Below are positions 60,357-62,730 of a DNA stretch of 64,000 nucleotides, piece by piece. The notes under the pieces are model-generated. The model was not told where the DNA came from. It saw only the letters and a program-made list of their open reading frames with translations, and ran no database searches. Location of the stretch: NCBI RefSeq assembly GCF_024757985.1, contig NZ_CP103289.1, positions 1,736,001-1,800,000 on the forward strand. The letters are read 5' to 3'. A program made the position numbers and the translations under genes. Origin of the DNA: Cellulomonas sp. NS3. Its GTDB lineage: Bacteria > Actinomycetota > Actinomycetes > Actinomycetales > Cellulomonadaceae. Within the stretch, counting starts at the first letter, position 1; every line of letters starts with the position of its first letter.

Positions 60357-60455
60357 CTAGTGACAGCGACAGCAGGCGGCGGCGACCCGGTCGAGCCGGG
60401 CGCACGAGGCCTCGCACGGGACCAGGGCGGTGACGGACGCGCGGCGGAGCAGCAC
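60357..60455 (-). CDS. Cysteine-rich leader peptide of cysK-cysE
   Basis: This 32-codon ORF starts at GTG 60455 after a strong GGAGGAGAGG and ends with [20 protein letters not shown], five Cys in the last 19 residues. The C-terminal CCRC run includes two rare TGT codons. It fits the actinobacterial Cys-rich leader peptides that sense cysteine by ribosome stalling. It lies 30 nt after the predicted transcription start and 253 nt before cysK. Confidence 0.72.
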
Positions 60456-60491
60456 GGTCACCTCTCCTCCCGGTCGGTCATGGACGCGCTG

Positions 60492-60520: not shown

Positions 60521-60591
60521 AGCATGCCCGAGGCGCGGGACATCACCCGCGACGGTGCCGCGACACAGACGCACGACTCGCGGCGCACGGC

Positions 60592-60654
60592 GCACGACGC
60601 ACGACGCACGACGCACGACGCACGACGCACGACGCACGACGCACGACGCACGAC
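60592..60654. repeat. Nine perfect 7-bp tandem repeats
   Basis: GCACGAC is repeated nine times without error, with degenerate copies back to about 60571. It lies between the cysK promoter and the terminator of the beta-helix gene. It gives open frames in several registers, none believed coding. Confidence 0.95.
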
Positions 60655-60686
60655 GAGCGGTGCACGGGAGACCCGTGCACCGCTCG
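60654..60686 (-). terminator. Terminator of the beta-helix protein gene
   Basis: CGAGCGGTGCACGGG-AGA-CCCGTGCACCGCTCG is a perfect 15-bp stem 40 nt downstream of the stop. Its left arm abuts the heptamer array. Confidence 0.8.
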
Positions 60687-60726
60687 CCGTGCGTGCCCCC
60701 TCAGCGAGAGGCCGTGCCGTCCTGCG

Positions 60727-61689
60727 TCAGCCGCGGGAGATCTTCACCGCCGCGCCGTCCGTGAAGTAGTTGTCGACGTTCCCGATCGTGTTCGTGCTCG
60801 GGGCGATGATCGCGCAGCGCGTGTGCCGCGTGTCGAGCCGGAAGACGTTGTTCGTGACGGCGAGACCCACGATGGCCGGGCGGCTGCCGTACGCCACGTT
60901 GACGGTGCACCCACCGCCGCCGATCCGGTTGTCGCGGATGGTCACGTCGGACACCGCGGCGCGGTCCTGCGTCGTCTGGACGGCGGAGGAGTACGCACCC
61001 TCGATGTTGTTGCGCACGATCCGGATGTTCGAGCCGCCCTGGATCTGCACGCTGTCGGCGTGGCTCGGGCCGCCCTTCTGGTTCGGGTCCTGCGCGTAGA
61101 ACAGGTTGGCGTGGAGCCACGAGCTCTCGACGAGCACGTTCGAGCCGGTGATGTGGACCGAGTCGATGACGTTGGCGATCTCGGTGCGGCGGACCGTGAA
61201 GTTGTGGCCGATGATCCCGTTGATCCACGGCGAGGCCTCGGTCGCGACCAGCTCGCTGTCCTCGACCGTGAAGGGGTGCGCCCCGAGATCGTTGGTGATG
61301 AGGCCGAAGCTGCCGGTGATCGGGCGGCCGCGGACGATCGAGCGCTTGATCGTGACGTTCGGCGCCTTGACCTTGATGAACCCGCGGACGTCGACCGCGT
61401 CGACGACGGCGCCCGGCGTGGTGACGACCAGGTCACCGGTGACGACCTTGAGGACCGTGCCGGCCGGCACGCCCGTCGTGTCGGGACCGGCGTTGCTGAG
61501 GACCGGGATGTCGAGCGCGGTCGGCGCGACGCCGACGGCCGACGCGGGGACGGTCGCGGCGAGCGTCGCGGCGACGCTCAGGCCGGCGACGAGGGCGAGC
61601 GAGCGGGCCCGGCGGCGGGACGTGCGGCGGTCGTCACGACCGGCCGTGGCGTCGATGGGCGCGCGGAAGCTACGGACTGCATTGAGCAC
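60727..61689 (-). CDS. Secreted right-handed beta-helix protein
   Basis: This 320-residue exported protein has a basic n-region (RRTSRRRARS), a hydrophobic core LALVAGLSVAATLAATV and an AlaXAla-type site near residue 50. The mature part shows parallel beta-helix turns: FIKVKAPNVTIKRSIVRG, FTVEDSELVATE, FTVRRTEIANVIDSVHITGSNV, NIRIVRNNIEGAYSSAVQ and VTIRDNRIGGGGCTVN. This is the pectate lyase/parallel beta-helix repeat type that binds or cleaves polysaccharides. Catalytic residues are not certain. GTG 61689 follows GGAGAA and the riboswitch candidate directly. The longer in-frame extension covers the RNA element and is rejected. Confidence 0.82.
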   Translation of the reverse strand: MLNAVRSFRAPIDATAGRDDRRTSRRRARSLALVAGLSVAATLAATVPASAVGVAPTALDIPVLSNAGPDTTGVPAGTVLKVVTGDLVVTTPGAVVDAVDVRGFIKVKAPNVTIKRSIVRGRPITGSFGLITNDLGAHPFTVEDSELVATEASPWINGIIGHNFTVRRTEIANVIDSVHITGSNVLVESSWLHANLFYAQDPNQKGGPSHADSVQIQGGSNIRIVRNNIEGAYSSAVQTTQDRAAVSDVTIRDNRIGGGGCTVNVAYGSRPAIVGLAVTNNVFRLDTRHTRCAIIAPSTNTIGNVDNYFTDGAAVKISRG

Positions 61690-61699
61690 TGGATTCTCC

Positions 61700-61778
61700 G
61701 TCGTTCGGCAGCCTGGCGAACCTCGTGGGTCCCATGGCTTTGCGTCACTGCCTCGCGGCAGCTTTGCCTTTTCGTGGA
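61700..61778 (-). promoter_or_regulatory. Cyclic di-GMP-I (GEMM) riboswitch candidate
   Basis: Reading the minus strand: CACGAAAAGGCAAAG, a CTGCC-GCGA-GGCAG hairpin with GNRA loop, the conserved GACGCAAAGCC (61736-61746), then ATGGGACCCACGAGGTTCG and CAGGCTGCCGAAC. Order and bases follow the GEMM-I consensus (GGCAAACC..., GNRA-capped stem, GGGACGCAAAGCC, GGGxC, GGTAGC-like tail). It ends about one base before the Shine-Dalgarno GGAGAA of the beta-helix gene, suggesting translational control by c-di-GMP. Confidence 0.75.
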
Positions 61779-61785
61779 CAGGAGG

Positions 61786-61815
61786 ACCGTATGCGGTCGC
61801 GACCGCGTGCGACAA
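61786..61815 (-). promoter_or_regulatory. Promoter of the riboswitch-controlled gene
   Basis: On the minus strand TTGTCG (61810-61815), 18-bp spacer, TACGGT (61786-61791). Transcription would start within a few bases of the riboswitch 5' end. Confidence 0.55.
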
Positions 61816-62100
61816 GAGTCACAGCGCACGGCAGGCGGGTGAAAGATCGCCGACCGGGCGGCGGCGCTCCGGTGTCGGTGATATCGGCCCGTGCGGATCG
61901 GGGCGATCGTGCAGGTCACGGGCGTGAGAATGCGCAAGAAGGCGTTGTTTTCGACAAGTTTCGGAACGGCTCCACGCCGCGGTCGCGAGGAGTCCGGAAC
62001 ATCCGTTTGCGGTCGATATCGACAGCGCCGTCGCATTCACGGACGGGTGCACCCGGAGGGGTGGTGCGGGCGCTCGTCCGCCGGTGCCCCTGCAGGGCCC
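61816..62100. other. AT-richer intergenic region with palindrome
   Basis: No gene is convincing here. The minus-strand frames 61819-62052 and 61578-62036 lack a codon bias or family resemblance. It includes a perfect GTCGATATCGAC palindrome (62012-62023) and AT-rich patches (GTTGTTTTCGACAAGTTTCGG) unusual for the chromosome, perhaps regulator sites. Confidence 0.5.
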
Positions 62101-62730
62101 TCAGCGGAGCCCGAGGGCGTCGAGCCACGCCTGGGCGAGCAGGCCGTGCCCGGCGGGGGTGGGGTGCACGCCGTCGTACGCCCACGCGGCCGGCGTGGTG
62201 CGGACGGAGGCTGCGGCGAACAGGCCGTCGGCCGGCACGAGCGTCGCGCGGAACTCCGCGGCGAGCCGGCGGACGACCCCGATGCGCGGGTCGAGGTCCT
62301 CGCGCCAGCCGTGCTGCGCCTCCTCGACGGGCACGACGAACGGCTCGACGAGCACCAGACGTGCGCCGAGGCGGTCGCGCGCGGAGTCGAGCATCGCGCG
62401 GTAGTCCTCCTCGTACGCGTCGACCGACGTGGAGCGACCCGCGTCGTAGCGGCGCCACGTGTCGTTGATGCCGACGAGCACCGAGATCACCGTCGGCTCG
62501 AGCGCGAGGGCGTCGGCCTCCCAGCGGTCCCGCAGCTGGCGCGCGGTGTCCCCGCCGACCCCGCGGTTGAGGAACGTCAGGCCCAGGTCGGGCCGCCGCG
62601 CGCCGGCGAGCGCGGCGACGAGCATCGCGTACCCGTGCCCGAGGCTCGCCGGGTCGCGGCGGTCGCGGCCCCCGTCGGTGATGGAGTCGCCGGTCAAGAG
62701 GATGCGGTCGCCCGCCTCGAGAAGCGTCAT
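62101..62730 (-). CDS. SGNH/GDSL hydrolase
   Basis: This 209-residue esterase has block I GDSITDGG (14-21), block II NRGVGGD, block III GINDTWRR, and block V DGVHPTPAGH with the catalytic Asp/His. No signal peptide is seen, so it is cytosolic, likely deacetylating a sugar or ester. ATG 62730 has TGCACT 6 nt upstream, a weak leaderless signal. Confidence 0.93.
   Translation of the reverse strand: MTLLEAGDRILLTGDSITDGGRDRRDPASLGHGYAMLVAALAGARRPDLGLTFLNRGVGGDTARQLRDRWEADALALEPTVISVLVGINDTWRRYDAGRSTSVDAYEEDYRAMLDSARDRLGARLVLVEPFVVPVEEAQHGWREDLDPRIGVVRRLAAEFRATLVPADGLFAAASVRTTPAAWAYDGVHPTPAGHGLLAQAWLDALGLR

Follow-up and report, generated by a model that had tools for sequence, protein, structure and literature searches.

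A predicted c-di-GMP-I riboswitch adjoining the Shine-Dalgarno sequence of a gene for a secreted beta-helix protein in Cellulomonas

Introduction

The c-di-GMP-I riboswitch contacts its ligand, in the usual numbering, through G20, A47 and C92, and in Streptomyces c-di-GMP acts through a protein, BldD. Binding of c-di-GMP to BldD is stated in the accessible part of PMC9530166. For the Bc1 riboswitch of Bacillus thuringiensis, the accessible part of PMC11218506 describes a long expression platform with two terminators, while a tendency of Actinomycetota to translational riboswitches is cited in that of PMC12452182, and riboswitch use in Kineococcus is suggested, without data, in that of PMC2587704. 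Within the accessible parts of the open-access literature we found no c-di-GMP riboswitch reported for Cellulomonas or before bldC; in those parts, a Cellulomonas paper (PMC8832061) has c-di-GMP in its references only and an Actinoplanes paper (PMC11626248) has the riboswitch in a cited title only. Here we analyse a window of 64,000 nucleotides from Cellulomonas sp. NS3 (NZ_CP103289.1, positions 1,736,001 to 1,800,000), in which an initial annotation had proposed a candidate c-di-GMP-I riboswitch as controlling a secreted beta-helix protein.

Results

The leader contains a c-di-GMP-I aptamer next to the Shine-Dalgarno sequence

Searching the whole window with Rfam cmscan, we found an RF01051 (c-di-GMP-I) match on the minus strand scoring 62.8 bits, far above the gathering score of 35 (E 6.4e-10), which bears out the proposed riboswitch; the remaining four Rfam matches in the window are tRNAs. 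The alignment spans model positions 1-87 without marked non-standard pairs, and the likeness to RF01051 thus covers the full-length model, including P2 with its GNRA loop, P3 and the GGCAAA / GACGCAAAGCC / GCUGCCGAA core. All of the motifs on which the proposal was based, namely GGCAAA, a GCGA-capped stem, GACGCAAAGCC, GGG and GGCTGCCGAA, are present and in that order. From this agreement with the RF01051 consensus we regard the identity of the element as a c-di-GMP-I riboswitch aptamer (Table 1) as confirmed at the sequence level, and its conserved core suggests that it binds c-di-GMP.

Table 1. Positions of the leader elements and of the coding sequence in the window
Feature	Position	Strand	Basis
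Probable -35 element TTGTCG	61810..61815	-	18-nt spacer to TACGGT; conserved in C. cellasea L044
Probable -10 element TACGGT	61786..61791	-	6 nt before P1
Inferred transcription start, P1 first base (G61779)	61779	-	-10 spacing
Aptamer, RF01051	61704..61778	-	62.8 bits and alignment
P2 stem-loop, GCGA (GNRA) tetraloop	61747..61762	-	helix 3 of leader alignment
P3 stem with U-A pair	61710..61739	-	helix 4 of leader alignment
Outer P1 3' strand GAC	61700..61702	-	can pair with GUC 61779-61777
Shine-Dalgarno GGAG	61696..61699	-	directly 3' of P1; anti-SD -6.6 kcal/mol
CDS from GTG (320 aa; predicted secreted protein with right-handed beta-helix)	60727..61689	-	orthologue alignment, AF2 model

Reading along the minus strand, the aptamer is followed by CCGAA, C, GAC, GGAG, six nucleotides and the GTG start codon, which lies 14 nt from the aptamer end on the same strand. 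The element therefore does end by the Shine-Dalgarno (SD) sequence, as claimed, and because GUC can pair with GAC, P1 would end directly at the SD. This position of the SD is common in the family: among 14 positions searched, the best anti-SD match fell at 0-6 after CCGAA in 104 of 105 loci, compared with 63, 46, 53 and 62 loci when the search was shifted by +60, +90, +150 and -120, and a match of -4 kcal/mol or better was found in 93 of the 105 loci, compared with 28, 24, 50 and 34 at the same shifts.

The claim that a promoter lies only a few bases from the element is supported by comparison with relatives. A strict sigma-70 scan of 60600-62150 returned no promoter, but of 105 family aptamers 60 carry a TANNNT hexamer at a distance of 5-8 nt upstream of P1, and in four shifted controls, counted at 4-8 nt, it occurred in 0, 0, 1 and 0 of 105. 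No upstream TANNNT was present in 44 of the 105, many of them bldC leaders that by eye read CATAGT. The spacing from TACGGT places the probable transcription start at the initial P1 base, so that the mRNA would begin with the aptamer itself. A pairing of CCUCC (61785-61781) with the SD, which appears favourable on inspection of the window, was not retained since the same -10 spacing puts CCUCC before the transcription start.

P2 and P3 are supported by covariation in related leaders

Helix conservation was scored at 21 pairs in an alignment of 99 family leaders. Changes on both sides of a pair were seen in 12 of the 21, against a mean of 7.0 in shuffled alignments, and none of 500 shuffles was as high. 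P2 was paired in 98.7% of cells, with both-sided changes in all six pairs, and P3 in 97.3%, with both-sided changes in four of ten pairs; with 10 of 16 pairs changed on both sides, P2 and P3 covary across the 99 leaders. P1, which has 3 bp in the window, was paired in 71.4% of cells and showed both-sided changes in two of three pairs. At least three P1 pairs were observed in 19 of 41 distinct combinations, which is not significant against permuted partners (mean 17.1; 519 of 2000 permutations gave as many), and the permutation script found no 3-bp P1 in 32 of 105 loci. P1 duplex energy differed little between own (-2.20 kcal/mol) and foreign (-2.10 kcal/mol) partners.

The downstream gene encodes a predicted secreted beta-helix protein

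The open reading frame had been drawn from 60727 to 61815, with a TTG start that proves to be too far 5', as the Cellulomonas cellasea orthologue aligns from residue 1 of the shorter GTG-initiated protein, at 75% identity over residues 1-320. The TTG at 61815 was rejected as a start codon: translation from it would run through the aptamer, and it sits in the probable -35 box. The leader of the C. cellasea orthologue (L044) is nearly identical, and a cysK-like gene lies downstream in both genomes. By eye, the N-terminus is that of a signal sequence, being Arg-rich with a hydrophobic stretch ending in ASA.

For residues 55-320, AlphaFold2 with 48 aligned relatives predicted a right-handed beta-helix with a pLDDT of 95.1 and a pTM of 0.92. 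The protein differs from PF13229 proteins in staying below the family cut-off (20.2 bits against 25.9); two relatives in L185 pass it (32.4 and 28.0), and those in L187 and L184 remain below (24.8 and 22.5). Searching the model against the PDB with Foldseek, we obtained 420 matches, two of them with E <= 0.001, both to the Dettilon tailspike (TMq 0.49 and 0.42; best E 7.4e-4). Among the 50 matches listed are AlgE epimerases, PL6 lyases, the adhesin PfbA and Vibrio cholerae RbmB (E 0.015), and a PDB sequence search gave one weak match, to an endopolygalacturonase (E 0.002). The predicted protein is thus like the polysaccharide-acting beta-helices (tailspikes, AlgE, PL6 lyases, RbmB) and the adhesin PfbA in its right-handed fold, but it differs from known beta-helices in its identity of only about 8-17% and in the low TM-scores among those 50 matches, and the Foldseek comparison of the model fixes the fold class, not the activity. 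A polysaccharide-active or adhesive role of the product is plausible, given that enzymes as well as an adhesin share the fold and that polysaccharide-synthesis genes stand close to its relatives at two loci.

Two features lie downstream of the beta-helix gene. A tandem array of the 7-base unit GACGCAC, in 12.6 copies, occupies 60568-60655, and no such array was seen by eye downstream of the C. cellasea orthologue. At 60357-60461 on the minus strand, before cysK-cysE, a small ORF encodes 34 aa with ACCRCH at the C-terminus, and C. cellasea L006 has a similar one; we take the product to resemble a cysteine-rich leader peptide for attenuation.

Riboswitch and beta-helix gene are paired in other genomes

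Relatives of the beta-helix protein are present in 75 of 221 family genomes. By eye, a riboswitch lies upstream of a beta-helix match, on the same strand and within about 1.4 kb, in at least 11 of 30 genomes, a lower bound from genomes picked mainly for their many riboswitches and not at random. The linkage rests on a continuous ORF in G000, G001, G069, G106 and G035 and on position in G014, G081, G099, G118, G150 and G156, the G156 match covering query residues 34-109 only and that of G150 being distant (32% identity). The contigs of G011 and G112 end too soon, and in G078 the riboswitch is 3' of the gene. No RF01051 match was found near the two paralogues of the NS3 genome (at 3.56 Mb). On a tree of 48 beta-helix domains, the riboswitch label, carried by 8 rows, needs 7 changes; the shuffled mean is 7.5, and 194 of 500 shuffles were as low. 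On this tree the riboswitch-regulated copies are scattered rather than forming one lineage.

Neighbourhood annotation covered two loci. The NS3 paralogues lie about 4-7 kb from a flippase-type polysaccharide-biosynthesis protein and a glycosyltransferase, and in G170 a glycosyltransferase gene sits between two beta-helix genes, with an initiating sugar transferase nearby. In a separate observation, G081 carries two c-di-GMP-I matches on the same strand, 361 bases apart (C31:119791-119865 and 120227-120301), possibly a tandem or duplicated cassette.

Control is probably translational, with an OFF direction favoured

We consider it fairly probable that the aptamer forms the 5' end of the mRNA and controls translation of the secreted beta-helix protein as an OFF switch. 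In such a mechanism, transcription would start on the first base of P1; binding of c-di-GMP would close P1, in which the 3' strand (GAC) is immediately followed by the SD (GGAG), and the docked aptamer would keep the 30S subunit off the SD, so that high c-di-GMP would mean less beta-helix protein. Once exported, the protein would presumably act on or bind polysaccharide, either the cell's own or that of the environment. Control is probably at the translational level, because the 3' strand of P1 touches the SD and there is no room for a terminator; transcriptional attenuation was rejected on the 14-nt distance to the start codon and on a terminator scan that found none on the minus strand at the window leader. 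An OFF switch by SD occlusion is favoured since a ligand-closed P1 would abut the SD.

The main alternative, which we regard as unlikely, is an ON switch, in which alternative folds would hide the SD without c-di-GMP and the ligand would free it, so that the protein would be made in the sessile, high-c-di-GMP state. The direction was addressed by computing SD accessibility with ViennaRNA, using a script that forced a minimum-energy core fold rather than a checked aptamer structure. Mean accessibility over 105 leaders was 0.41 with the core forced and 0.44 in the free ensemble, in a run in which the SD offset was 11-13 in 18 of the 105 leaders, mostly with the 3' anchor misplaced in bldC leaders; the window leader gave 0.30 and 0.38, respectively. 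Because forced and free values are nearly equal, the predicted folding does not separate OFF from ON. An SD about half paired in the free ensemble is what an ON switch would have, and 13 of the 105 leaders gained more than 0.1 in accessibility when the core was forced, but 25 lost more than 0.1. Proximity of beta-helix relatives to polysaccharide-synthesis genes would also fit expression during matrix building; against this stand the P1 that abuts the SD in the window and the lack, by eye, of a recurring alternative helix. We judge it highly improbable that the element is instead a switch of mRNA stability, where the ligand would shield or expose the P1 5' end to 5'-dependent decay with translation secondary: in many family members the inferred +1 coincides with the initial base of P1, as this would have it, but a pure stability switch would not need the conserved SD position behind the aptamer. 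That the aptamer has lost binding or senses another ligand, as a variant class such as c-di-GMP-I-GGC (RF03167) or a cGAMP type would, is the least probable of all, for although RF03167, of the same clan, matches too, at 56.3 bits, it misses its cut-off of 59, its consensus G in GACGCGAA is in the window the A of RF01051, and 28 positions are invariant across the 99 leaders, some of them because the pattern used to select the leaders required them.

Related aptamers precede bldC, small-protein, EAL and secreted-protein genes

The 4.78 Mb genome contains five RF01051 matches together with 38 GGDEF and 24 EAL matches (one EAL below cut-off). RF01051 matches occur in the genus (7 of 7 genomes), the family (96 of 200 genomes, 7 of 25 genera) and the class (43 of 394 genomes, 28 of 138 genera), with 0 of 14 controls positive at each level. 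The oligoribonuclease noted in the window is indeed encoded there, at about 12.6-13.3 kb on the minus strand (NF003765, 261.2 bits); as a general enzyme encoded about 48 kb from the riboswitch, it adds little to the c-di-GMP link.

Targets of 109 aptamer loci were sorted by a rough script that considered only start codons 8-27 nt after the aptamer; the loci being mutually related, the resulting counts of 50 small ORFs, 28 bldC, 16 secreted, 14 other and one EAL are not independent, and L044 was wrongly filed as a small ORF while L118 is doubtful as secreted. The bldC motif is also found in L099 and L134, both filed as other, which brings it to 30 of the 109 loci; in NS3, the one genome in which this was tested, the protein matches NF033787 at 103.1 bits (cut-off 77). 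In one such case, L027:4454-4678 on the minus strand, the c-di-GMP-I aptamer lies directly upstream of bldC. An aptamer before bldC might let c-di-GMP act on a Bld regulator at the mRNA level. The EAL target (L097:636-1487, minus strand) matches PF00563 at 198.8 bits, and L117, filed as other, resembles it by look; an EAL gene behind a c-di-GMP-I aptamer could possibly provide feedback on the signal itself.

Riboswitch-led small proteins occur in about 49 of the 109 loci under script limits of 25-75 aa (for example L024:1101-1265, plus strand), often starting with MDQRG and often ending like VPAQRE. Neither Pfam nor NCBIfam matched the 55-aa small protein of the NS3 genome at E 0.001. Two other secreted targets of this genome carry PKD domains and presumably resemble family-26 glycoside hydrolases; Pfam gave no such match.

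A P3 pair with a 5' U occurs in 13 of the 109 loci. By a filing that rested on a crude hydropathy rule, 12 of them precede putatively secreted proteins, the thirteenth being the C. cellasea orthologue (L044), and the other 96 loci include four filed as secreted (L091, L105, L107 and L118). The partner of this U is A in all 11 such rows of the leader alignment. As a further variation, the aptamers of L102, L106 and L091 (at about 301-375), which stand before putatively secreted proteins, have GGCGCAAAG at a place where those of the other 106 loci have ACGCAAAG.

Discussion

The covariance score, a genome rich in c-di-GMP enzymes and the recurrence of the pairing in other genomes together support the interpretation given in the initial annotation. 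More broadly, we tentatively propose, with rather less confidence than in the switch itself, that in Cellulomonadaceae the riboswitch is a mobile minimal translation cassette, reaching from the first transcribed base to the SD, which would have been attached to bldC, to a small-protein family, to EAL proteins and, on several occasions, to a single copy within a local set of beta-helix paralogues; aptamers with the P3 U-A pair would form a sub-lineage dedicated to secreted proteins, and a Bld regulator would be controlled via its mRNA. If this is true, c-di-GMP would control a Bld regulator through mRNA, in contrast to its action through the BldD protein in Streptomyces, and we consider the bldC link the most interesting by-product of the analysis. 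The minimal layout, in which the 5' end is the aptamer and the aptamer adjoins the SD, would also offer a simple model of how a ligand can govern the access of ribosomes.

As a kind of gene switch the element is known, and a Cellulomonas riboswitch before a secreted beta-helix gene is well supported as an additional case. It differs from Bc1 of B. thuringiensis, as described in the accessible part of PMC11218506, in that its expression platform would be the SD right behind P1, with the probable +1 on P1.
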